From NCBI RefSeq assembly GCF_014489575.1, contig NZ_CP060789.1:1302001-1366000 (forward strand): a stretch of DNA of 64,000 bases, written 5' to 3'. Made by a program: the position numbers and the translations under genes. Below are positions 25,590 to 36,281 of the stretch, one piece after another; position 1 is the first letter of the stretch; every line of letters starts with the position of its first letter. This stretch comes from Tessaracoccus defluvii (GTDB taxonomy: Bacteria; Actinomycetota; Actinomycetes; Propionibacteriales; Propionibacteriaceae). Below the pieces are notes generated by a model, which saw only the letters and a list, made by a program, of their open reading frames with translations, made no database searches and was not told the origin of the DNA.

Positions 25590-28211
25590 TCAGACAGCGC
25601 CCCGCAGCGAATCCAGGAGGCCGGAATCGCGCGCGACGCGCACCGCCTCCCGTCTGCTCCCGGCCTCCAGTTTCCGGTAGATGGACTTGAGGTGCTGTTT
25701 GACGGTGTTCTCCGACACGCTCATGGACTCGGCGATCTCGGCGTTGGAGCACATCGTCGGAAGGTAGAGGAGGACGGCGTGCTCGCGATCGGTCAACGCC
25801 CGGGGCCGCCAGTCCTCCGGCCGTTCGGCGGGCGACGAGGTCGCCAACGCCGTCACAATGAACTCGCTGTGCGTCCCCACGAGGTCCCTGTGCCGCCGCA
25901 GGCCCCGGACGAGCTGATGGTTCGGGAAGAGCAGGGGCAGCGCGGTGCGTTCCTCCGCGGCGAGATCGAGGGCCCGGGCGAGCGCCTCCACGGATGTCGC
26001 CTCGCGCCGTTGCTGGTCCTCCGCCAGCGACAGCAGCAGCCACGCCTCCGCGGCGCCCTCCTCCCTGGTCAGGGCATCTGCCAGCGTCTCCCGGACGCTG
26101 TCCGGCGAGCCGGACGCCAGCTGCAGGCGGGCCTTCGCCAACGTCACGGGGAGGGTGACCTGGGCCTCGGACGTCGCCTCGGCCAGGAGTGCGGCGGCGG
26201 TGTCGTGTTCCCGCCGTGCGATGGCGAGTCTGACCCGCAGCGCGGTCCACGAGTGGTGCAGGAATCCGTTGCCGCCCCGCCAGGCCAGGCTCTCACCCGT
26301 CCGTTCGAGGGCACGGCGGGTTCCTGGCAGGTCACCCACCGTCAGCAGCTGGCGGGCCGTCACGAGCCCAAGCAGGACCCTGGCAAGCGGGTTCAGAGCG
26401 GAGCCTGCCACAGCGACGCACCGTTGCCGGGCACCGAGCGCTCCGCTGAGGTCACCGCCGTCCAGCATGACGATGGCCCGGGCGAGCCAGGCCCACTGGG
26501 CCCACTGCGTCCGCTCCAATCCCTGTGCAGCCGCCCACGTCAGGGCGCTCGCCGCGCACTCCTCCGCCCTCAGGTTGGCTCCGTGCATGGCGTGGGCCAC
26601 AGCCAGCAGGCCGCGGGCCTCGACCTCCAAGGTCCCCCCGCCATGCTGGGCCGCGGCGAACACCGAGGCCTCCGCCAGATGCCCGGTGGCCTTCTCCGGC
26701 TGCCCGGTCCACAGCTCGGCCACGCCGAGCAGGGCGACGGCGGGGCCGGGATCCCTGCCGCGCACGTCGTCTGACATGCGCAGCAGTTCTGCGGCCTGCC
26801 CCGAGAACCGGCGCAGTGCCGGACCGTCCCCGCGAAGGAATGCCTGGTCCGCCTCGATCAGGGCCATCAGCCCCGCCGCCGGCCGCCTCCGTGCCTCCGG
26901 AAGGTCCTCCAGCCCCCGTTGCCCCACCCGTAGGTACCCCTCGGTGTCGTCCAGGGCTCCTTCCCGATGCGCCAGCGCCGCGTGGGCCAGCGCCAGCTCG
27001 GGATGCGCGGCGATCCGCTCCAGCGGGATCCGCGCCAGGGCCTCCGCGACCGGCGAGGTTCCCGGTGCGCGCACCAGCGTCGTGGCGGGCCCCACGATCA
27101 TGGCGCCGATGAGTTCCCAGTCCCCGGCGAGCATCGCCGGCCGGAGTGCCTCGTCCCAGTCGCCTCGCCGCGCATGCCACGTCGCTGCGCACCGCTGCAG
27201 GGCCTGCAGCTTCCGCGGCTCCTGGTCCTCCAACCTGCGCAGCAGCGGGAGGCGCACCAGGGGCTCGACCCGATACCAGGAGGAGTCGGGTGCCTCCCGG
27301 GACGCCAGCTGCGCGTCCTCGACCCGTTCGAGGAGGCAGGCGGCGTCGTCACGACCACTCATCGCCTCCGCCAGCCCCACCGTCAGGCGGTCAGCCACCG
27401 AGGTCGCGGTGAGGAAGTCGACGATCTCCGCGGCGAGTGGGGCGAGGACCTCGTCCTGCACGTAGCGGCGCGTGGAGTCGCCGGGTCGGCCGGACCAGGC
27501 CGGGTCGGTGTGGAGGTCGAGCGCAGCGAGTTCGACGGCAGCCGCCCACCCGCCGGTAGCGTCCAGCAGTCGCTCGATCTCGTCGGCCGGCTGCGGACGG
27601 CCGTGGTGGTGGAGCAGCGCGCCGGTCTCCGCGGCGCTGAAGCGGAGGTCCGGCAGGCCCACCTCCGCCAGTCGTCCCTCGACTCGGAGCCGGGAGTCGG
27701 AGATCTGCGGCACCGCCCGCGACACGAGGATGAACGCCACAGCCCGGGGCGGGCGGCGCAGCAGCTGGCCGAGCCAGGCCGATGTCGAGGCGCCGGTGAG
27801 ACGGTCGGCGTCGTCGAGGACGATCGTGACCCCGCCTGCGGCGACGCAGACGTCCTGGAGGAAGCCGATGTCCGGCCCCCGGGGCGCCACCACGCTCCGC
27901 ATCTGTGTCGGAAGCGCCACGCCCAACGCGGCCACGAGTGTGCGCCAGAACGGGCCGAGTTCGCGATCGGACTCGTCGGCCGACACCCAGACGACCGCTG
28001 TGTCCGGCTCAGCGGTGCGGGCCCAGTCCGCCACGGCCGTCGTCTTGCCCGTCCCGGCCGGGGCGTGGACCAGCGTGACCGGGGTGGCGACGTTGCGGGC
28101 CAGGATCTCGCTCAGACGGGGCCGGGGGCGGGCACCCGGAGTCGGGACCGGCGGGCGTAGCCGAGCCTCGTCATAGCGGGTGCCTCCAGGCACCTGTTCC
28201 CGATGCGTCAT
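25590..28211 (-). CDS. Large LuxR family regulator (MalT/LAL-type ATPase regulator)
   Basis: 873 residues. An N-terminal P-loop ATPase (APAGTGKTTA near residue 45, VTIVLDDADRLTG as Walker B) is followed by ~500 residues of TPR-like helical repeats rich in Ala/Leu, and a C-terminal LuxR helix-turn-helix (LTDREHAVLLYLPTMCSNAEIAESMSVSENTVKQHLKSI, in part). This is the MalT/LAL plan in which an inducer and ATP drive oligomerisation. ATG 28211 with GGGGAG upstream is preferred to more distant starts. It is divergent from the sensor kinase operon; its inducer is unknown. Confidence 0.88.
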   Translation of the reverse strand: MTHREQVPGGTRYDEARLRPPVPTPGARPRPRLSEILARNVATPVTLVHAPAGTGKTTAVADWARTAEPDTAVVWVSADESDRELGPFWRTLVAALGVALPTQMRSVVAPRGPDIGFLQDVCVAAGGVTIVLDDADRLTGASTSAWLGQLLRRPPRAVAFILVSRAVPQISDSRLRVEGRLAEVGLPDLRFSAAETGALLHHHGRPQPADEIERLLDATGGWAAAVELAALDLHTDPAWSGRPGDSTRRYVQDEVLAPLAAEIVDFLTATSVADRLTVGLAEAMSGRDDAACLLERVEDAQLASREAPDSSWYRVEPLVRLPLLRRLEDQEPRKLQALQRCAATWHARRGDWDEALRPAMLAGDWELIGAMIVGPATTLVRAPGTSPVAEALARIPLERIAAHPELALAHAALAHREGALDDTEGYLRVGQRGLEDLPEARRRPAAGLMALIEADQAFLRGDGPALRRFSGQAAELLRMSDDVRGRDPGPAVALLGVAELWTGQPEKATGHLAEASVFAAAQHGGGTLEVEARGLLAVAHAMHGANLRAEECAASALTWAAAQGLERTQWAQWAWLARAIVMLDGGDLSGALGARQRCVAVAGSALNPLARVLLGLVTARQLLTVGDLPGTRRALERTGESLAWRGGNGFLHHSWTALRVRLAIARREHDTAAALLAEATSEAQVTLPVTLAKARLQLASGSPDSVRETLADALTREEGAAEAWLLLSLAEDQQRREATSVEALARALDLAAEERTALPLLFPNHQLVRGLRRHRDLVGTHSEFIVTALATSSPAERPEDWRPRALTDREHAVLLYLPTMCSNAEIAESMSVSENTVKQHLKSIYRKLEAGSRREAVRVARDSGLLDSLRGAV

Positions 28212-28346
28212 GGCCCTTCTCCCCTGCGGAACGTCCGGCGGGCCCCCAGCCCGCGCGTCCGTACCCCGGCGACTCCGCCGGTGCCTGAAGCCTAGGCACT
28301 TTCCGCATCCTCCGGCACTGCCCGGTGTAGGGATCTTCATCACCCT

Positions 28347-28367: not shown

Positions 28368-28458
28368 ATCGCAAGTCGGGCCCGGATCGGGGCCCCACCA
28401 CCCCCTTGTATTGTGCGGGTCAGGGCGGGTCTGTCCTCCCTTTCTCCGAAGGAGTTCC

Positions 28459-29594
28459 ATGACCCCTGTCTCCGTCAGTCGCCGGACAGACCGGCAACTC
28501 GGGTGGCTCATCTCCCTCTGTGCCGTCGTCATGATCGGCGGCCGCATTCCCCTCATCCTCGAGCAGGTGCCCCTGTTCGCTCCGTGGTGGACGACGGCCG
28601 GCCTGTTCGCCGTCTCCCTCGTCGCCGTCTCGGCAGTGGGCGGATTGGTGCTCCCGCTGGCCGTGTTGCGCCCCTCTGGGGCGGGGCCTCCGCGCTGACG
28701 CTGGTCCTGTTGTGGTCGACTGCGCCCGCCTACACAGGCCCCGGCGACCCACCGGTCCCGTGGCTCTGGTCGCTCGAGCCTGTCACCGTCAGCCTCCCGA
28801 TCCTCCTTGCACCCGTACCCATCGCTGTCGCGGGTGCGCTGGCCTCCGGCCTCTCCGTGGCCGCGTCGTCGATGCTGTTCCTGGGTCACGTACCCCACGA
28901 CATCCTCGTGCTGACACCTCCGCACGTCAGCAACCTCGCCTTCCTCGTGATCTTCCTGGGCATGCGGATCCAGCTCACCCGGCTCCGCGAGGCGGAGGAG
29001 GCCGCGAGGCGGGCCGCCGAGGAGAGCACCCTGGCGCGGGCAACCGCTGACAGCCGGGAACGGTTGGGGGCACTCATCCACGACGAGGTGCTCGCCGTGC
29101 TGAATGCCGCGATGCTCTTCGACGGTCCCACGCCCGACGTTCTGCAAGCCGAGGCGGACACGGCCATCTCCGTCCTGCACCGGGAACCGGGCGCCGAACC
29201 GGCCGGGTACGGGCCCGCCGAGTCCGTCGCCCGACTGGCCGCGGCGGCGGCACGGACGTGGAGCGACTCCCGGGTGACCACGCTCGCCGACGGGGAAGGA
29301 CCCATCCCCGCGGGGGTCGTCGCGGAGGTGGGGCACGCGATGGGCGAGGCGATCCGCAACGCACGGCGGCACTCGGGCGCTGACGACGTCGACGTCACCG
29401 TGTCGGCCATCGGCACCGGGCTGACGGTGCGCGTCGCCGACGCAGGCCGGGGCTTCGATCCCGCGACCGTCGCCGACTCCAGGCTCGGGCTGCGGCACAG
29501 CATCCAGCGGCGGATGGAGCTGATCGGCGGGACCGCCGATGTCGCGTCGGCCCCGGGGAATGGGACGGAGGTGGTGCTCCGATGGAGGACGTGA
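28459..29594 (+). CDS. Sensor histidine kinase (NarL-type partner), frameshifted
   Basis: Membrane sensor kinase. The N-terminal part (28459-28698 frame) has two membrane helices (LGWLISLCAVVMIGGRIPLIL and LFAVSLVAVSAVGGLVLPLAV, each quoted in part). The remainder (second frame to 29594) has more membrane segments, then a HisKA_3-like dimerisation helix with phospho-His in ALIHDEVLAVLN, and a HATPase domain (GEAIRNARRHS N-box, VADAGRGFD G1 box, LGLRHSIQRRM). One missing C in the CCCC run 28671-28674 explains the break (LRPLWGGAS restored). CGAAGGAG precedes ATG 28459. It overlaps the next gene by 13 nt. Confidence 0.85.
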
Positions 29595-30573
29595 CGTCGA
29601 GCGGCTCGGGGGCGGCCGGGCTGGCGACGAGGGCCGCGCGCTGGACCATCGCCCTGGCGTGGGCCATGGGACTGTGCAGCGGGCTGCTGTCGGGGTTCCT
29701 CTCCACGGGGACCCCCGTCGTCTGGCTCGGGTACGCGCTCGCCCTGCTCGGGACCTTCCTCCTGACGGATCCCAGGGACGCTCCCCTGACGCTGTGGCGG
29801 GCACTCGCCGTGGTCGCCTGCTCCGTGGCGATCGCCGTCATCGTCCTGGCTCAGCGACCGACCGGCGCCGTCTATCTGTTCGACTTCGCCTCCTTCCTGG
29901 TCGCCCTCCTGATCGCCCGCGGCAACGCGCGTCAGGGGGTGCTCGGCGGCGCGCTCATGGTGCTGGCGGCCGTGGCCTGGGGCTGGGCGACGGGCGCACA
30001 GCCCACCGCGGTGGCGGCGTTGGTCTCGCTGGCCGTGATGGCCCAGGTGCTGGGGCCGCTCTGGAGGCTCGTGCTGCGCTGGATCGTCGGCCGGGCCCGC
30101 GGCCATCGGTCAGCCTCCGCTGCCGCGGAGCGGATCACCCAGGCTGCCCTCCAGGCCGACCGCCTTCGCGTCATCGAACTGAACCAGGTGCGGGCCATGG
30201 CGGAGCCTGTCCTGCGGGAGATCGCCGCGGGGGTCCCGCTGACCGGCGAGTTGCGTCGTCGCATCGCCATCGTGGAGGGTGCGCTCCGTGACCGGCTGCG
30301 GGCACCCGCCTTCCAACAGCCCGTGCTCATCGACGCCGTCGCATCGCTGCGGGCCGACGACACCGACGTCACCGTCGTCTCGCCCACGACATGGACGTCA
30401 TCGGCGTCGACCTCGCCGACGCCATCGCCGCGACGTTCACCGCGGGAGCGCGACGCGTCGTGCTGCGCGCCACCGTCCGCGGAGACAGGGTGCATGTGAC
30501 ACTGAGGCAGGACGACCGCTCGGACGACTTCTACACCGGTTCACCCATTCCGACAGATGTGAGGACGCCATGA
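29582..30573 (+). CDS. Histidine-kinase-like membrane protein without kinase motifs, frameshifted
   Basis: Second membrane protein of the operon, ~330 residues after frame repair. About six membrane helices occupy residues 20-170, then a coiled-coil-like helix (AAERITQAALQADRLRVIELNQVRAM, in part) and a ~110-residue C-terminal domain. That domain resembles a kinase ATPase domain in order (LADAIAATFTAGARRVVLRATVRGDRVHVTL, in part) but lacks N, G1 and G2 boxes, and no phospho-His helix is evident. The frame breaks near 30381-30385 and continues in 30391-30573. It overlaps the sensor kinase by 13 nt and the regulator as ATGA. Confidence 0.7.
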
Positions 30574-31193
30574 TCCGCATCGGCATCGTCGACGACCACC
30601 CGGCGATGGTCGTCGGCACGTCCACGATCATCAACCTGCAGAGCGACCTCCAGGTCGCGGCCACCGGACCCGATGTGCACTCGCTGCTGGAGCTGACCAG
30701 CCAGCTCGATCTTGTTCTGCTCGACCTTGTGCTGACCGACGGCTCAACACCCGCCCAGAATCTGCGGCGGCTGTCGGAACACGGTATCGCCGTCCTCGCC
30801 TACACCTCGGGGGAACGGGCCAGCCTGGTCCGCGCCGCCGTCCGGGCCGGCGCCATCGGGGTCCTCCGCAAGTCGGAGTCCCCGGAGACACTGCTGTCGG
30901 CGATCCGGGCCGCAGCCCGAGGGGAGACCGTCGCCACCGTCGAATGGGCGGCCGCCCTGGATGAGGATGTCTCGCTGCCGCGGGCCGCGCTCACGCCGCG
31001 CGAGGCCCAGGTGCTTGCCCTCTACGCGTCGGGAGCGACGGCGGAGACCGTCGCCGCCGAGCTGTTCATCTCGCGGAACACGGTGACCGACCATGTGCGC
31101 AACATCCGCGCGAAGTATGTCGGGCTCGGACGCGACGTCCGGTCGAAGACGGGCCTGTACAAGAGGGCCGTCGAGGACGGCTTCGTCGACTGA
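30570..31193 (+). CDS. LuxR/NarL family response regulator
   Basis: 207 residues. The receiver has acidic pair D8-D9, phospho-acceptor Asp52 (LVLLDLVLTD), and the conserved Lys (GVLRKSESPETLL). The C-terminal LuxR-type DNA-binding helix-turn-helix is LTPREAQVLALYASGATAETVAAELFISRNTVTDHV (quoted in part: EAQVLALYASG, SRNTVTDHV). It starts at an ATG overlapping the previous stop (ATGA), so it is co-translated with the two sensor proteins. The regulated genes are not evident; the operon may respond to an envelope signal. Confidence 0.92.
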   Translation: MIRIGIVDDHPAMVVGTSTIINLQSDLQVAATGPDVHSLLELTSQLDLVLLDLVLTDGSTPAQNLRRLSEHGIAVLAYTSGERASLVRAAVRAGAIGVLRKSESPETLLSAIRAAARGETVATVEWAAALDEDVSLPRAALTPREAQVLALYASGATAETVAAELFISRNTVTDHVRNIRAKYVGLGRDVRSKTGLYKRAVEDGFVD

Positions 31194-31224: not shown

Positions 31225-32311
31225 TCAGCTGCCGATCCGCGCGGCGATCAGGCCCGTCACGATGACGGAGGTGATCGTGACGGTGGCGAAGCCGGCGATG
31301 ATCATCTTCGGCAGGATGGCTCCCTCGATGGCCGCCACCTCCTCGGGCGACTCGCCGGCCCCCTTGGCGGCCTCCTGCGACAGGATCATCGTGCCGGGGA
31401 AGCCGTACAGAGAGGTGAGCCCGATGGCGACCGACATCGGCACCGTGTAGCCCAGCAGCTTGCCGGTGAGAGCCGAGAACGACACGATCCCGAGCACACC
31501 CGCGGCGAAGGCGATCAGCAGCGGCACGGCGAGGGCCGCCACGTCGGCGGGTTCGACGGTGGCCAGGGGCCCGAACACGAGGATCATGATGGCCAGCATC
31601 ATCAGGCCGTAGGAGTCGATGCCGGTCAGGATGCCCGGCTTGAAGATGCCGAGCGCGCGCAGGGCGATCCCGAAGATGAGGGCCACCACGAACGTGTTCA
31701 GAACCCCACCCGTGAGATTGTTGATGAGCAGCGAGAGCAGGACGACGATGCCGACCAGCAGCAGGGTGCCCGGTGTCGTGGTGAGGAACTCGGGCACCTT
31801 CGGCCCGGGCTTCGGCTCGCCGTCGGCCGGGGCCGCCGCCACGGGGCTTTCCAGCCGGCCGGCACGGTACTCGTCACGGAGCCTGGCCGCCTCCTTCCGG
31901 AGGATCAGTGACGTCAGCGGAAAGCCGATCAGGCCCCATGGCCTGCGACACGCCGTCATAGACGCCCTGCCTCCGGCCGCCTCCGAACACGAAGCCGGCC
32001 ACGTAGAGCAGGATGCCGATGCCGACGACGGTCGCCACGCCGATGACGAGGACCTTCCACAGCCGCTTGAACTCGCTGATGCTGATCAGGGTTCCGAGGT
32101 GGACGATGATGAACCCGACGGCGACACCGCCGAGGGCGAGCAGCGACGAACTCGCCAGCAGGTCCTCGGGGAAGATGCCGCTGAGGAAGCCAATGAAGAA
32201 GATGATCGACGCGACGAAGAGCGACGACAGCAGCGACTTCGTCTTCTTCGCCACGAGGTCGCTGACCGTCCACACAGCCATGACGATGGCGAAGGCGAGC
32301 ACTGAGTTCAT
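31225..32311 (-). CDS. Multi-pass membrane protein, ion-transporter-like, frameshifted, unassigned
   Basis: About 361 residues and ten or more membrane helices in two similar halves, each with a Gly-rich re-entrant-like stretch (GGVAVGFIIVHLGTL; IGLTSLYGFPGT). The N-half is MNSVLAFAIVMAVWTVSDL..., the C-half ends MIIAGFATVTITSVIVTGLI. This plan is like GltS, 2-hydroxycarboxylate or keto-deoxygluconate permeases, but I cannot assign a family. A cytoplasmic charged linker (LRKEAARLRDEYRAG) lies between halves. The frame breaks near 31934-31941 (an extra base is the simplest repair, giving SQAWGLIGFPL). It converges with the response regulator gene. Confidence 0.7.
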
Positions 32312-32523
32312 GAGGTTCGGGTCCGGCTGGCGCCCACATCCTGCCGGTGAACGGTGGGGACGGCATCCCCGCAGAGGGTGGCACAGGAGGGCGCTCCGGC
32401 CGTCGCCGTCGCAGGCCGGACCCCCGCCGCCCCGGGATACCCCTCCGCGGGTGAGGCGCCCCAGCGGCAGGGGGTTCAGACTTCCGGCACGAGGGTCAGC
32501 GGTGCACCGCGGAGAGGATGGAC

Positions 32524-32739
32524 ATGACGGAGACTCGCAGCTGGATTCCACGGTCGCCACGGTTCTGGGTAGGGCTCGGCATCGCCGTCCTCGCCGTCGC
32601 CTTCATCCTCCAGAACCGTCACGACGCCGTCATCAACCTGCTCGCTGCGACGGTGAGTGCGCCGCTGTGGCTCGTGTTGTCGCTGGTGTTCGTGGCGGGC
32701 GGCGCCACCGGTTGGCTCGTCAAGCGTCGCAAGACGTGA
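32524..32739 (+). CDS. LapA-like small membrane protein (DUF1049)
   Basis: 71 residues with two membrane helices (FWVGLGIAVLAVAFILQN; LWLVLSLVFVAGGATGWLV) and a basic tail, the usual LapA/DUF1049 plan, including the QNRHD motif after the first helix. ATG 32524 lies 9 nt after GGAGAG and is preferred; ATG 32518 is in frame but too near the ribosome binding site. Its stop overlaps the GTG of the P-type ATPase homologue (GTGA), so the two are translationally coupled. LapA family members act in envelope assembly; no specific role is known here. Confidence 0.82.
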   Translation: MTETRSWIPRSPRFWVGLGIAVLAVAFILQNRHDAVINLLAATVSAPLWLVLSLVFVAGGATGWLVKRRKT

Positions 32740-35165
32740 CCCGGAGCGCGGCGCCGCAGCGTCCCCCCGCTGCCCGCCGCACAGATCCGGCCGCGCGTTC
32801 GAGGGTGCGGGCCTGGGACACCCTGCGTCGCGAGAGCGTGTTCACCGCCTTCAACCTGAACATCATCGGCCTCAGCGCCATCCAGCTGCTGCTGCGGGAC
32901 TGGTGGGGCGCCTTCATGACGATCCTGATGCTCGGCGTCTCGACAGGGATCCGGGTGACACAGGAACTCCTGGCCGCGCGCCGCATCCACACCTACCTCG
33001 CCGATGCCGAGCCCCGCTACACGGTGCAGCGCGATGGACAGAGCATGGCCGTCGCCCGGGACGAGGTGGTCCGGGGTGACGTCCTCATCGTCGGGCCGGG
33101 CGACCATCTGTTGGCGGATGGGATGTGGCTCGGCCCGAGGCCGGTGACGGTCGACGAGTCCCCCGTCACCGGCGCGGCGCCGATGCGGCAGGTCGCGCCC
33201 GGCGAGCGGCTCCTCGGCGGCAGTTACTGCGTGGCGGGACGCGGCGCGTACGTCGCGGAGGCCGTGGGCGACGACCGCCAGCTCGCCCGTCAGCACGCCG
33301 GCCTTCTTCGACGGCCACCGGTCGCCACGCCGCTGGAGCGGGTCGTGGCCCGGACCCTCCAGGTTCTGCTCGCCATCGTGGCGGTCTACGCCGCGGTGCT
33401 CCTGGCCGACTGGGCCAGGCTCGACATGGGGGCGACCGGCGACCTGCTCGTCGACGCCGCCCCGGTGATCTTCAGCATCGCGCCGACGGGCCTGTACCTG
33501 ATGATCATCGTCACCTATATCACCGGGACCGCCGACCTGGCCAACCGCGGGGCGCTGGTGCGTAACGCCCGGTCTGTCGAGTCGCTCGCCGAGACCTCCG
33601 TGGTGTGTTTCACGGATCTCGGGATCCTCGCGGGGACCTCGCTCGAGCTCACTCCCGTGCCTCCCCCGGCCCACCTGGCGCCGCTGCCGGAGTCCACGGT
33701 GCGGCAGATGCTCGGCGACGCGGCCAGGAGCCTGAGCGCAGGCGGCCACCGTCTCGAGCGGGTCGCCTCGGCCTTCGAGGGAGAACGGCGCGGCCTCCGC
33801 GTGGAGGAGCCCCACCTGACGTCGCTCGGCTGGTCGGCCGTCGTCTTCGACGACCCCGACCTCGCAGGGATCTACGTCCTCGGCGAGGGGGACGTGCTCT
33901 CGCCGCACCTGGTCAACCCGCTCCCTGCGACGTTCGAGGCGGACGCCGACACCATCGTGCTGGCGTACCGGCCGGACGAGGTCGCGTTGCGTGACTCCGC
34001 CGGACGGCCCCTGCTTCCGTCCGGACTCATCGCCGTAGCGACCGTCCACCAGGCCAGGCGCCTGCGCCCTGAGGCGATGCAGGTGGTCCGTGGGCTCATC
34101 GCCGCCGGGATCCGCATCAAGGCGTTCTCCCCCGGCTCGCCGACGGAGACGCTGGAGATGCTGCACTCCGCAGGCCTGTCCGACGACGACGTCGCCTTCG
34201 TCGTCTCCAGGGGAGCCGTCTCCCGCGCCACCCTCGAGGCCAGGCCGCGCGAGGAGTGGGCCGGCCTCGCCCTCGACAACGCCCTCTTCGGCGGCCTGTC
34301 CCCCGAGCAGGTCGGCGAAGTCGTCCACCTGTTGCGGGCCTCTGGCGAGACGGTCGCCGTCATCGGTGACGGCGTCAGGGACCTGCCCGCGCTGAAGGCG
34401 GCGTCGCTGCCGATCGCGCAGCCGTCGAGCACACAGGCTGCCCTCGACGTGTCGAGCATCGTGCTGCTCAGCAGTGCGCCTGACGCGCTGCTGCAGGTGC
34501 TCGCCCGCGGCCAGTCGATCATCCGCAGCCTCGTGGACGTGCTGCGGCTCAACCTCACGATGGTGACCGCCTCGGCGTTTCTCATCGTCGCGGTGAGGTA
34601 CCTCAGCCAGGGGTTCCCATACGTGTCGTCGCACGGCTCGGTCATCAACATAGCCACGGTCACGATCCCGTCGCTGGCGCTGTCGCTGGTTCCTCCGCCG
34701 CACTCCCGCCAGGTGTCGAGCGCCTCCTATTCGCGCATGCTGGCCCGGTTCGTGCTGCCGGCCGGATTGCTGCTGGGCCTGACCGCGTTGGCGGTGTACG
34801 TGATCGTGCTGGACGGCGCGGGGCGCTCGTCGGCGCAGCAGGCGGTCGCGTACACCCTGGTCTACGCGGGGCTGCTAGTCGGAGTGCTGACCAGGCGAAC
34901 GCGGACGCAGGCGGGCGTCGCCGTCGCGATCGCCGCCGCCGTCACGCTGCTTCCCCTGCTGCCCTGGACGTCGGGCCGGTTCCGGATCACGTGGCTCCCG
35001 GAGTGGTGGCACTATCCGCTGGTCGTCGGTGCGGTGGTCGTCTGGCTGATCGTGCTGCAGGGGGTGTGGTGGCTGCTGCGACGCCTCGCCAGGAGACCAG
35101 CAGCGTCGGTCCCGTCTGGTCGCGCCACCTCACCCCCGCGCCACGAAGTTGAATCAGACGTATAA
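32736..35165 (+). CDS. P-type ATPase homologue (CtpE-like) with degenerate catalytic motifs
   Basis: 809 residues with the full P-type ATPase plan. Two N-terminal helices, an actuator domain (PGDHLLADGMW), two central helices, phosphorylation and nucleotide domains, and about six C-terminal helices are visible. Catalytic motifs are changed: TGES is TGAA (A147), DKTGT is DLGIL (Asp294 kept, Lys lost), TGD is PGS (466-468), GDGVND is GDGVRD (R548). The general order resembles CtpE-type cation pumps. It probably cannot complete a normal ATPase cycle and may be a structural or regulatory protein. The GTG start overlaps the LapA-like stop. The frame is intact, so the changes are not due to sequence error. 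Confidence 0.82.
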   Translation: MTRSAAPQRPPAARRTDPAARSRVRAWDTLRRESVFTAFNLNIIGLSAIQLLLRDWWGAFMTILMLGVSTGIRVTQELLAARRIHTYLADAEPRYTVQRDGQSMAVARDEVVRGDVLIVGPGDHLLADGMWLGPRPVTVDESPVTGAAPMRQVAPGERLLGGSYCVAGRGAYVAEAVGDDRQLARQHAGLLRRPPVATPLERVVARTLQVLLAIVAVYAAVLLADWARLDMGATGDLLVDAAPVIFSIAPTGLYLMIIVTYITGTADLANRGALVRNARSVESLAETSVVCFTDLGILAGTSLELTPVPPPAHLAPLPESTVRQMLGDAARSLSAGGHRLERVASAFEGERRGLRVEEPHLTSLGWSAVVFDDPDLAGIYVLGEGDVLSPHLVNPLPATFEADADTIVLAYRPDEVALRDSAGRPLLPSGLIAVATVHQARRLRPEAMQVVRGLIAAGIRIKAFSPGSPTETLEMLHSAGLSDDDVAFVVSRGAVSRATLEARPREEWAGLALDNALFGGLSPEQVGEVVHLLRASGETVAVIGDGVRDLPALKAASLPIAQPSSTQAALDVSSIVLLSSAPDALLQVLARGQSIIRSLVDVLRLNLTMVTASAFLIVAVRYLSQGFPYVSSHGSVINIATVTIPSLALSLVPPPHSRQVSSASYSRMLARFVLPAGLLLGLTALAVYVIVLDGAGRSSAQQAVAYTLVYAGLLVGVLTRRTRTQAGVAVAIAAAVTLLPLLPWTSGRFRITWLPEWWHYPLVVGAVVVWLIVLQGVWWLLRRLARRPAASVPSGRATSPPRHEVESDV

Positions 35166-35188
35166 TTCATGCATGAGTGATCTGATTC
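35151..35188 (+). promoter_or_regulatory. Leaderless promoter and nested palindromic operator of the XRE gene
   Basis: A perfect TATAAT at 35161-35166 lies 7 nt before ATG 35173, so the transcript would start at or next to the start codon. Around it, GAATCAGA (35151-35158) and TCTGATTC (35181-35188) form a perfect inverted repeat, with a 10-bp palindrome TCATGCATGA (35168-35177) inside. A binding XRE protein would cover the -10 and the start codon, as expected for autorepression. No good -35 is seen. Confidence 0.6.
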
Positions 35189-35754
35189 GAACGTCGCGAA
35201 AGCGCACCGGACTGACCGGGGCTCAGCTCGCTGATCGCCTCGGAATTTCCGTCGGTGCCGTCTCACGCATGGAGCGATCGGAACGCGCTGGCACCATCCA
35301 GGTCGACACGCTTCGCCGGGCGCTGGCCGCGATGGGGCATGACGTCCGGCTCGACGCTGCGCCCCATGATCCCTACGCGGCCTTCACACCGGCCAATGTC
35401 ACTGATGCCATCAACCTGGCGCTTGACGAGGATCGCCCCGAGTACGCCCTCCGACTCCTGACCCAGGCAGCAGCAACGATCGCCGCCCATCCCGCGCGGT
35501 TCGATGACGATTCGCTGGCACGCCGGCCCTCCCAGATCGGGGACAACCGCTGGGAGCAACTCTTCAGGGCCACTATGAGCGACGCGATTCCCTCGGCACG
35601 ACGGCCCGCCTGGGCAGAGCCCACACGACTCTCGAGGGCCTGGTACCCGTTCGGCCATTACCCCTCACTCAGGAACCGCGCCAAGGCGGCGACACCGGAA
35701 CGGCTCAGGATTCTGAACATCATGATCGACCAGCGCTCTCTGAGCCGGGCATGA
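35173..35754 (+). CDS. XRE family helix-turn-helix protein, antitoxin-like
   Basis: 193 residues. An N-terminal XRE domain (IRTSRKRTGLTGAQLADRLG, then SVGAVSRMERSE) binds DNA; the remaining ~130 residues (DALNLALDEDRPEYALRLL-like helical region, FGHYPSLRNRAKAATPERL) are not recognised. ATG 35173 is chosen because of the leaderless promoter; an in-frame start at 35149 would be inside the operator. The stop overlaps the start of the nucleotidyltransferase gene (ATGA). Lower GC content than neighbours suggests acquisition. Together they look like a toxin-antitoxin pair with this protein as antitoxin and repressor. Confidence 0.8.
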   Translation: MSDLIRTSRKRTGLTGAQLADRLGISVGAVSRMERSERAGTIQVDTLRRALAAMGHDVRLDAAPHDPYAAFTPANVTDAINLALDEDRPEYALRLLTQAAATIAAHPARFDDDSLARRPSQIGDNRWEQLFRATMSDAIPSARRPAWAEPTRLSRAWYPFGHYPSLRNRAKAATPERLRILNIMIDQRSLSRA

Positions 35755-36281
35755 TCGACGGGCTGAGACTGACGCCCGCACGGGCGCGGGCACTCATCGA
35801 CGAACTCGAGGATCGACTCGCAGCGGCGGGAGTTCGCGCCACTATCCGTATCGCCGGCGGTGCCGCGATGGCTCTCCGTTTCCCGGATGATCCAGACCTC
35901 CGAGTCACGATGGACGTCGACGCGGTTTACGCCCCTCGGGCCGATGTGGACCGCGTGATCGCCGATATGGCCCGCGAACACGGGCTCCCAGGGGAATGGA
36001 TGAACAGCGCGGGAGCCGCCTGGAACATCGTCAACGACACTGGCGCGACGATCAGCGTCGCGACACCCGAAGAACTCATCGCCATGAAGATGGCAGCAGG
36101 TCGCCCTCAGGATCTCGTGGATCTCAGAATCCTGGCCGACCACCTGGGCATCACCGACCCACGCAGGCTCGTCGAGCTGGCCTACGCAGGCTACGGCGAC
36201 GACTCCGCTGCGCTCAGCGACCCACGAGAGTCCTACGAACTGTTCGCCCGTGACGTCCTGAGGCCTCGCAGGGGCAGATAG
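35751..36281 (+). CDS. DUF6036/AbiEii-like nucleotidyltransferase, putative toxin
   Basis: 176 residues of the DUF6036 / AbiEii-type nucleotidyltransferase fold: RIAGGAAMALR with the GG-x-A motif, then TMDVDAVYAP with the metal-binding Asp pair, and EELIAMKMAAGRPQDLVDL with the conserved Lys and Asp. This is the family of AbiEii/MenT-like toxins that modify tRNA or other targets. The coupling to an upstream XRE gene (4-nt overlap) is typical of such pairs. A terminator hairpin lies 100 nt downstream, before tRNA-Asn. The toxic activity is an inference from family and context. Confidence 0.78.
   Translation: MIDGLRLTPARARALIDELEDRLAAAGVRATIRIAGGAAMALRFPDDPDLRVTMDVDAVYAPRADVDRVIADMAREHGLPGEWMNSAGAAWNIVNDTGATISVATPEELIAMKMAAGRPQDLVDLRILADHLGITDPRRLVELAYAGYGDDSAALSDPRESYELFARDVLRPRRGR

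Follow-up and report, generated by a model that had tools for sequence, protein, structure and literature searches.

A CtpE-related clade of putative pseudo-P-type ATPases that appears to be maintained in Propionibacteriaceae and Chloroflexota

Introduction

A phosphorylated aspartate is the defining feature of P-type ATPases. We describe here a gene from a 64,000-nucleotide stretch of the Tessaracoccus defluvii genome (contig NZ_CP060789.1, positions 1,302,001 to 1,366,000; hereafter the window) whose product is predicted to have the complete P-type fold and lacks this aspartate, as do nearly all of its closest relatives. CtpE, the nearest described protein, is reported to be a Ca uptake pump of the functionally uncharacterised P-type ATPase family 23 (FUPA23; PMC5615198), and its group has been named, or proposed as, P6 (PMC10654040). 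CtpE and its family are closest to the window protein both by sequence and in our tree (hhalign E 1.7e-127 over 789 columns), and the order of domains is the same. Unlike CtpE, however, the pseudo-ATPases are without the catalytic Asp and Lys, the motif III Lys, the ATP-site Arg/Lys and the PEGL or PYGL motif of the fourth transmembrane helix (TM4); the Glu of TGES is mostly lost, many members have an extra N-terminal helix, and the genes lie in another neighbourhood.

The nearest functional parallel is the animal protein ERMA, which we take to be the same protein as TMEM94. ERMA is reported to have a complete P-type fold in which TGES and GDGVND are lost, the nucleotide pocket is occluded and the Asp is essential (PMC13322241). 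The pseudo-ATPases and ERMA have in common a full P-type fold with several catalytic motifs lost, but the pattern is opposite: ERMA keeps Asp-Lys (DKQGIL) and loses GDGVND (GSSANL). ERMA was not among the best 60 of the 144 PDB sequences matched by our family profile. The Plasmodium guanylate cyclase GCbeta has a degenerate P4-ATPase domain in which most signature residues are not identifiable (PMC6592433); it differs from the pseudo-ATPases in being eukaryotic, fused to a cyclase and of the P4 type.

A further comparison concerns the neighbouring genes. E. coli YbaS is the glutaminase of glutamine-dependent acid resistance (AR2_Q), a type of system described in enteric bacteria and Brucella (PMC6250119, PMC5695133). 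A YbaS-type glutaminase gene is found in the cluster at six of nine pseudo-ATPase loci, and elsewhere in the genome that contains the window; the transporters that accompany it, however, are AbgT and CitMHS. We know of no pseudo-P-type ATPase that is part of an AR2_Q system. In the open-access literature that we searched, we recognised no description of the clade, and an earlier mention is possible.

Results

A complete P-type fold is predicted for the 809-residue product

As an earlier note on this DNA had claimed, the frame is unbroken over 809 residues and the actuator (A), phosphorylation (P) and nucleotide-binding (N) domains and the TM core are present in P-type order, by Pfam, structure model and PDB matches alike. 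Pfam recognises an E1-E2_ATPase domain (PF00122, 1.6e-24) and a HAD domain (PF00702, 5.8e-8). An AlphaFold2 model, which the same note had suggested making, reached a predicted local distance difference test score (pLDDT) of 85.8 and a predicted template modelling score (pTM) of 0.83, and matched whole P-type ATPases in the PDB. The prediction for the product is thus a P-type ATPase fold complete in all its parts; its PDB matches are a mixture of E1 and E2 states and not diagnostic of either. The start of the gene is uncertain: no stop interrupts the frame upstream as far as position 32007, and GTG 32805 (residue 24) is an in-frame alternative.

Residues of phosphoryl transfer and nucleotide binding are lost across the clade

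Residues were counted in 31 rows of the actinobacterial clade, 42 other degenerate rows and 76 canonical rows, omitting the duplicates L016_x, L042_x and L157_x (L, P and G numbers are our own labels). The names 'actinobacterial' and 'other' or 'Chloroflexota' refer to clades of the tree and are taken from their few named members. Both hhalign profile-profile alignment and MAFFT alignment with the 76 canonical relatives place C291-F-T293-D294-L-G296-I-L298 without a gap on C-T-D-K-T-G-T-L, so that Thr293 stands where the phosphorylatable Asp of DKTGT belongs and Asp294 at the Lys position; the earlier note, which had taken Asp294 for the retained catalytic residue, was wrong on this point. The catalytic column is Asp in 76/76 canonical rows, Thr in 31/31 actinobacterial rows, and Ala (27), Thr (5), Ser (3), Gly (3), Val (2) or Asp (2) in the 42 others. 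Its neighbour is Lys in 76/76 canonical rows, Glu (22) or Asp (9) in the 31, and Glu (22), Lys (10), Arg (6) or Gln (4) in the 42. Relatives read CFAKAGILTG (Asp replaced by Ala, Lys kept), CFARAGILTG, CFAQAGILTG or CFAEAGILTG, and actinobacterial rows mostly CFT(E/D)(V/L/I)G. We consider the shifted register to be right because relatives such as CFAKAGILTG show the intermediate state. Two rows, P0063 (which reads DKADT) and L051, retain Asp-Lys and have lost the GDGVND loop instead.

The other catalytic motifs are altered to different degrees (Table 1). TGES does read TGAA, as previously proposed; its Glu, present in 76/76 canonical rows, is kept in 8/31 actinobacterial and 6/42 other rows. 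The N-domain Arg/Lys (48 Arg and 28 Lys among the 76 canonical rows) is Gly throughout the clade (31/31 and 42/42, or 73/73). The (S/T)GD motif aligns with S465-P466-G467 and reads SPG, one residue away from the PGS first suggested. At the Lys of HAD motif III (75/76 canonical rows), the actinobacterial rows have Val (26), Ala (3), Ile (1) or Met (1) and the others mainly Ala (26), with Lys in three. The proposed loss of GDGVND holds for the Asn, which is found in 76/76 canonical, 0/31 actinobacterial and 8/42 other rows; it does not hold for the Mg-ligand Asp residues, since D545 (30/31) and D549 (31/31) remain, as do their equivalents in 36 and 37 of the 42 other rows. The window copy has also exchanged an R417-type Arg for D405, a position that is Glu or Asp in 21/31 actinobacterial rows, and an Arg524-type residue for G520. 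We presume that the G365 and D405 sites are equivalent to the K492-type and R560-type residues of SERCA. Canonical residues R444, K462, K554 and E141 are retained. In TM4, Pro250 is kept in 73/73 clade rows; the Glu/Tyr position of the PEGL-type site is Thr251 in the window copy and Ser or Thr in 31/31 actinobacterial rows.

We then took the 63 columns that have a single residue in at least 74 of the 76 canonical rows. Of these, 29 persist in 28 or more of the 31 actinobacterial rows, 23 persist in no more than six, and 11 lie between. The kept columns include many structural Gly and Pro residues, the actuator Asp and the GDGxxD loop, whereas the lost ones include the catalytic Asp and Lys, the three Thr of DKTGTLT, the GD of (S/T)GD, the motif III Lys, the GDGVND Asn and the N-domain Phe, Ser and Arg, together with columns of no evident catalytic role (e.g. 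N85, S177, A206, A294 and G569). From these counts, it looks as though phosphoryl-transfer and nucleotide-site residues have been selectively erased, and further so in the actinobacterial clade.

The pseudo-ATPases form one clade beside CtpE

The earlier note had asked whether the altered motifs recur in homologues or whether these are mostly canonical, which would make the window copy an isolated decaying gene. Among the best 120 of 297 matches, DKTGT is missing from every row closest to the query (P0002-P0065; 64/64 read), and canonical CtpE rows (P0066-P0121), with DKTGT in 56/56 read, all score below them. The altered motifs are hence shared by homologues from at least two phyla, and the window copy is no isolated case of decay. 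The 64 degenerate clusters comprise 331 member sequences by table sum. A profile search gave the same separation among the best 120 of 251 matches (587 bits for the lowest degenerate row, P0065, vs. 511 bits for the best canonical row, P0067).

In a tree of 155 rows and 752 columns from which motif columns were excluded (LG+G4, with Shimodaira-Hasegawa-like approximate likelihood ratio (SH-aLRT) support only), all 75 degenerate tips fall in one clade (SH-aLRT 100), implying one change of state. P0002 and rows shorter than 690 aa (P0061, P0065 and P0090) were dropped, and L050 and P0122 (410 aa) were left out. The sister rows are canonical (node 99): L044/L157, the same gene from a Chloroflexi metagenome-assembled genome (MAG), and L045 from an Eremiobacterota MAG. 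Nodes below this grouping are weak (35-52), and the exact placement within P6 rests on them. The tree and the motifs make a strong sequence-based case that the pseudo-ATPases are a clade of single origin beside the CtpE/P6 ATPases.

There is also reason, from substitution patterns, to regard the family as maintained rather than decaying. In the close pair G106/G039, the ratio of non-synonymous to synonymous substitution rates (dN/dS) of the pseudo-ATPase is 0.124 (NG86, 779 codons); a regulator gene beside it has 0.145 and a META-domain gene 0.274. Comparisons among four other, more distant copies of the pseudo-ATPase give 0.25-0.39, with near-saturated dS. Isolated decay was rejected as an explanation for the family on the basis of the single clade, the shared losses and the low dN/dS of the close pair. 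The clade has also acquired features of its own. Five clade-wide substitutions (E201, R279, V542, P582 and Q593) take the place of canonical residues, the last two where TM5 begins; in pumps, this stalk couples the P domain to the membrane. At the N terminus, 33/37 and 11/25 degenerate database rows have a hydrophobic helix with basic residues after it, vs. 0/55 canonical rows.

Named members on the Actinomycetota side belong to Propionibacteriaceae (Propioniciclava, Propionicimonas, Granulicoccus and Propionibacterium MAGs) and one Actinomycetaceae MAG; those on the other side are Anaerolineae/Chloroflexota MAGs. The gene is rare: among 147 genomes from the window's family, 8 carry it (nine copies, E <1e-150), as does 1 of 14 listed genomes of its genus. 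Further matches in the family are at 1e-67 or weaker, and the three whose motifs were read (L010, L020 and L021) are all canonical. Within a phylum sample of 396 genomes, only that of the window has a match better than 1e-180; the ten next matches read are canonical, and the G436 and G383 matches (1e-176 and 1e-167), considered as possible members, were rejected on reading as canonical. A Chloroflexota sample of 301 genomes contains, among matches listed to 1e-180, one genome with two degenerate members and seven other matches that are canonical. L158 (G545:C168:4650-7136), the earliest branch, reads CLGKTGAL, with Gly at the catalytic Asp and KTG present, and shares its genome with a typical member, L153.

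We also considered whether the pseudo-ATPase might be an obligatory partner of a canonical CtpE pump, and rejected this, as G106, G039 and G082 have only pseudo-ATPase(s) and partial matches below 250 bits. A canonical CtpE copy was read in G000, and G009 (825 bits) and G086 (800 bits) have strong matches to the canonical profile; G113 has three more matches, at 301-320 bits. In G103, canonical CtpE profile matches are split over two pieces (G103:C1:3183381-3185688), and the same genome has an open-frame pseudo-ATPase.

In Propionibacteriaceae the gene mostly lies among genes of a putative transport and stress island

We examined 7-19 kb around the relatives' genes and the whole window for the window copy. 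Island queries were drawn from L170, L171 and the window, so these loci partly match themselves. Island genes are near eight of the nine Propionibacteriaceae loci: a LapA-like gene at 8/9, DUF1269 at 7/9 and the glutaminase at the six mentioned above. The others are AbgT, an M17 aminopeptidase, META, HtrA-like and CitMHS genes, a 416-aa membrane protein without a Pfam match, and a LuxR-type regulator. When the L171 glutaminase was compared with PDB chains, E. coli YbaS scored highest (1u60, 235.7 bits; next 204.9); PRK12356 was likewise a best match. None of these genes was found at the family's 21 CtpE loci (L210-L230, 10-18 kb, E 1e-6), which were told apart by best match, with DKTGT read in L010, L020 and L021 (the last two lying in L211 and L212).

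Table 1. Positions in the window of the pseudo-ATPase gene, its altered motifs and neighbouring genes
Feature	Position	Strand	Evidence
Putative pseudo-P-type ATPase (P6/CtpE-related), 809 aa, GTG start, TAA stop	32736..35165	+	Open frame, Pfam, AlphaFold2, PDB fold, 75-tip clade
TGAA (145-148) at TGES actuator motif; Ala147 replaces Glu	33168..33179	+	Alignment
Thr293-Asp294 at catalytic Asp and Lys positions of DKTGT	33612..33617	+	hhalign, MAFFT, gapless
Gly365 replaces N-domain Arg/Lys (RWSA/KWSA)	33828..33830	+	Residue counts
S465-P466-G467 at (S/T)GD motif	34128..34136	+	Alignment
Val526 replaces HAD motif III Lys (PEQK)	34311..34313	+	Residue counts
GDGVRD (544-549); Asp545 and Asp549 kept, Arg548 replaces Asn	34365..34382	+	Residue counts
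LapA-like two-helix protein, 71 aa	32524..32739	+	PF06305 3.4e-6, 27.3 bits, just below 28-bit cut-off; no NCBIfam match
Membrane-protein gene in two frames (31937-32362, 31228-31935)	31228..32362	-	tblastn; no Pfam/NCBIfam match
Response regulator (receiver and LuxR-type helix-turn-helix)	30570..31190	+	PF00072, PF00196
Sensor kinase-like protein (HATPase domain)	28413..29594	+	PF02518
Large LuxR-type regulator with AAA domain	25590..28343	-	PF00196 and AAA

Discussion

A proposed role and its alternatives

The evidence for the family is strong, and from it we infer a function. We propose, at about even odds for and against, that this is a maintained pseudo-P-type ATPase acting as an ATP-independent accessory or regulatory membrane subunit, which in Propionibacteriaceae would serve its transport and stress island. 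A clade related to CtpE-like ATPases (FUPA23, proposed P6) would have retained the 10-helix architecture and the A, P and N domains but would no longer bind ATP or be phosphorylated. With the Asp, the DKTGT Lys, the motif III Lys, the N-domain Arg/Lys and the R417-type Arg gone, the known pump cycle should be unable to run, and the protein would presumably have no ATPase activity; the reversed charge at the Lys slot and the R417-type position would be expected to repel ATP phosphate. The cytosolic three-domain head could then be a binding or regulatory platform, with the conserved function carried by the membrane helices, and the Mg loop might be kept as a structural element or as a sensor for Mg or phosphate. 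The putative client would be the island of YbaS-like glutaminase, AbgT and CitMHS transporters, DUF1269, LapA-like protein and LuxR-type regulator. As YbaS-like glutaminase is an enzyme of glutamine-dependent acid resistance, a role of the island in acid or amide stress is plausible by analogy. More broadly, and tentatively, the bacterial pseudo-pumps might have abandoned phosphorylation entirely and now serve secondary-transport and acid-stress islands as subunits, or gated pores, that need no ATP; they would then be a bacterial counterpart of ERMA/TMEM94 with the opposite losses.

Conservation was compared domain by domain in pairs of matched overall identity (55 actinobacterial-clade and 1165 canonical pairs in the 35-45% bin; 266 and 392 in the 45-55% bin), pairs in all bins being non-independent. 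The actinobacterial clade is more conserved than canonical pumps in TM3-4 (0.56 vs. 0.29 and 0.62 vs. 0.47, in the lower and upper bin, respectively), TM5-6 (0.50 vs. 0.36 and 0.59 vs. 0.50) and TM7-10 (0.35 vs. 0.23 and 0.42 vs. 0.34), and less conserved in the A domain (0.38 vs. 0.45 and 0.46 vs. 0.52) and likewise in P1 and P2.

A number of observations weigh against our proposal, beginning with the same comparison: the N domain is slightly more conserved in the clade (0.39 vs. 0.35 and 0.45 vs. 0.42), TM1-2 is even or less conserved (0.44 vs. 0.43 and 0.47 vs. 0.56), the shift to the membrane helices is absent in the 55-70% bin, and the non-independence of the pairs applies throughout. Catalytic-site residues are often retained in the other degenerate rows (N-domain Phe in 37/42, the Asp of (S/T)GD in 23/42 and the Lys in 10/42). 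L204, L207 and L209 are island stretches without a pseudo-ATPase, and G086 has a pseudo-ATPase without any island gene in its 17-kb stretch. In the genome of the window, the island parts other than META and HtrA are scattered over three places: M17-AbgT-glutaminase near 661-665 kb, DUF1269-CitMHS near 312 kb, and the window itself with the regulator, the two-component genes, the 416-aa protein in two frames, the LapA-like gene and the pseudo-ATPase. The distribution of DUF1269 (E<1e-20), in 7/8 pseudo-ATPase genomes vs. 7/139 others, speaks for the island link, but the Fisher p of 1e-7 ignores relatedness and used a threshold chosen after the data had been seen. No partner common to the five Chloroflexota loci (L047-L051) was found when sought; L047 and L049 instead share a pair of aldehyde ferredoxin oxidoreductase and TauE genes and a helix-turn-helix gene. 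Lastly, the window copy lacks the N-terminal helix and the GLTEAEA segment of its relatives and has a long branch, and its dN/dS with the four more distant copies is 0.50-0.68, also with near-saturated dS. Compared to 0.25-0.39 among the others, this indicates that it evolves faster; since it lacks the helix and ranks with the more diverged rows, other members represent the family better.

The main competing explanation, which we consider possible but rather unlikely, is that the old pump core has become a passive transporter, i.e. a channel, uniporter or lipid scramblase that works without ATP. The stronger conservation of TM3-TM10 at two of the three identity levels and the invariance of Pro250 in TM4 are both consistent with this. 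On the other hand, the Glu/Tyr position of TM4 is Ser or Thr in every actinobacterial row, and TM4-TM6 of these rows contain no acidic residue that reaches 90% conservation, which speaks against a Ca channel at the former site; the AlphaFold2 model is silent on whether a pore is open.

The earlier note had seen the ATPase as coupled to a LapA-like protein and wondered whether the two genes are always side by side, which would suggest a dedicated two-part system with LapA as obligatory partner. We regard this as improbable. In the window genome the genes do form an overlapping pair, the TGA stop of the LapA-like gene overlapping the GTG at 32736 as GTGA. Among the nine loci, however, this is the only overlap: in the others that have it, LapA belongs to a larger island and is separated from the pseudo-ATPase by between 0.7 and about 8 kb, lying on the opposite strand in 5/8 loci, and L204 has a LapA-like gene in an island stretch without a pseudo-ATPase. 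No LapA match was found at E 1e-6 in the five Chloroflexota loci, although for a protein of this small size the test has little power. Fission of the fused N-terminal helix into a LapA gene was tried as an explanation, without a clear outcome: TM2 of LapA scored a mean of 11.8 against the fused helices of 36 rows and 2.7 (sd 9.8) against 21 control proteins, of which five reached 11.8 or more. Furthermore, G106 carries both the fused helix and a LapA gene.

It is more doubtful still that ATP is bound or hydrolysed by an unusual chemistry, with Thr293 as acceptor or a second ATP site as proposed for ERMA/TMEM94, and with GDGxxD in use. Thr is invariant at the Asp position of the 31 actinobacterial rows, D545 and D549 are kept, and ERMA is reported to move Mg with ATP despite the loss of TGES and GDGVND and an occluded N pocket (PMC13322241). 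However, ERMA has the Asp-Lys pair and its Asp is reported there as essential, whereas here the Asp and the DKTGT Lys are gone, as are the motif III Lys, the N-domain Arg/Lys and the R417-type Arg. Least probable, by a little, is that the window copy alone is decaying, as its long branch, its raised dN/dS and its 12 changes at 162 near-invariant clade positions (the fourth highest of 31) might suggest, given that the frame is open, 8/12 changes are conservative, its cluster P0002 has 21 member sequences, dN/dS is low in the related pair and the losses are conserved clade-wide.

If our proposal is right, a stable bacterial lineage with a 10-helix, three-domain machine minus its phosphorylation chemistry would suggest that the fold has been retained for another purpose. 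At the Asp-Lys site its members form a natural series (Ala-Lys, Ala-Arg, Ala-Gln, Ala-Glu and Thr-Glu/Asp), which could be used as a probe of the fold uncoupled from ATP. Annotations of these proteins call for caution, since databases list some members as 'magnesium-transporting ATPase' or 'HAD-IC family P-type ATPase'.

Other features of the loci

The LuxR-type regulator at 25590..28343, presumably MalT-like, has homologues in the relatives' islands (tblastn; L167, L168, L170-L172, L204 and L207-L209). The membrane-protein gene at 31228-32362 is 75-78% identical to a single 416-aa frame at L170:3638-4885, and its split into two frames is either a true break or an assembly error. Directly 3' of the pseudo-ATPase, at 35149-36281 (+), an XRE-type helix-turn-helix gene is followed by an AbiEii-like nucleotidyltransferase gene, an arrangement that resembles a toxin-antitoxin pair.

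In Chloroflexota, the aldehyde ferredoxin oxidoreductase-TauE pair (L049:3203-5782 (+) and L047:12860-14661 (-)) adjoins the pseudo-ATPase or lies within 5 kb of it. L050, one of the five loci, has two DUF1269 proteins upstream, and between a DUF1269 gene and the pseudo-ATPase is a gene for a protein with a neurotransmitter-gated-ion-channel-like ligand-binding domain (L050:3495-5462 (+)). Directly upstream of the L047 pseudo-ATPase is a gene for a DUF308 protein (L047:4969-5535 (+)), a domain that we take to be of the HdeD type.

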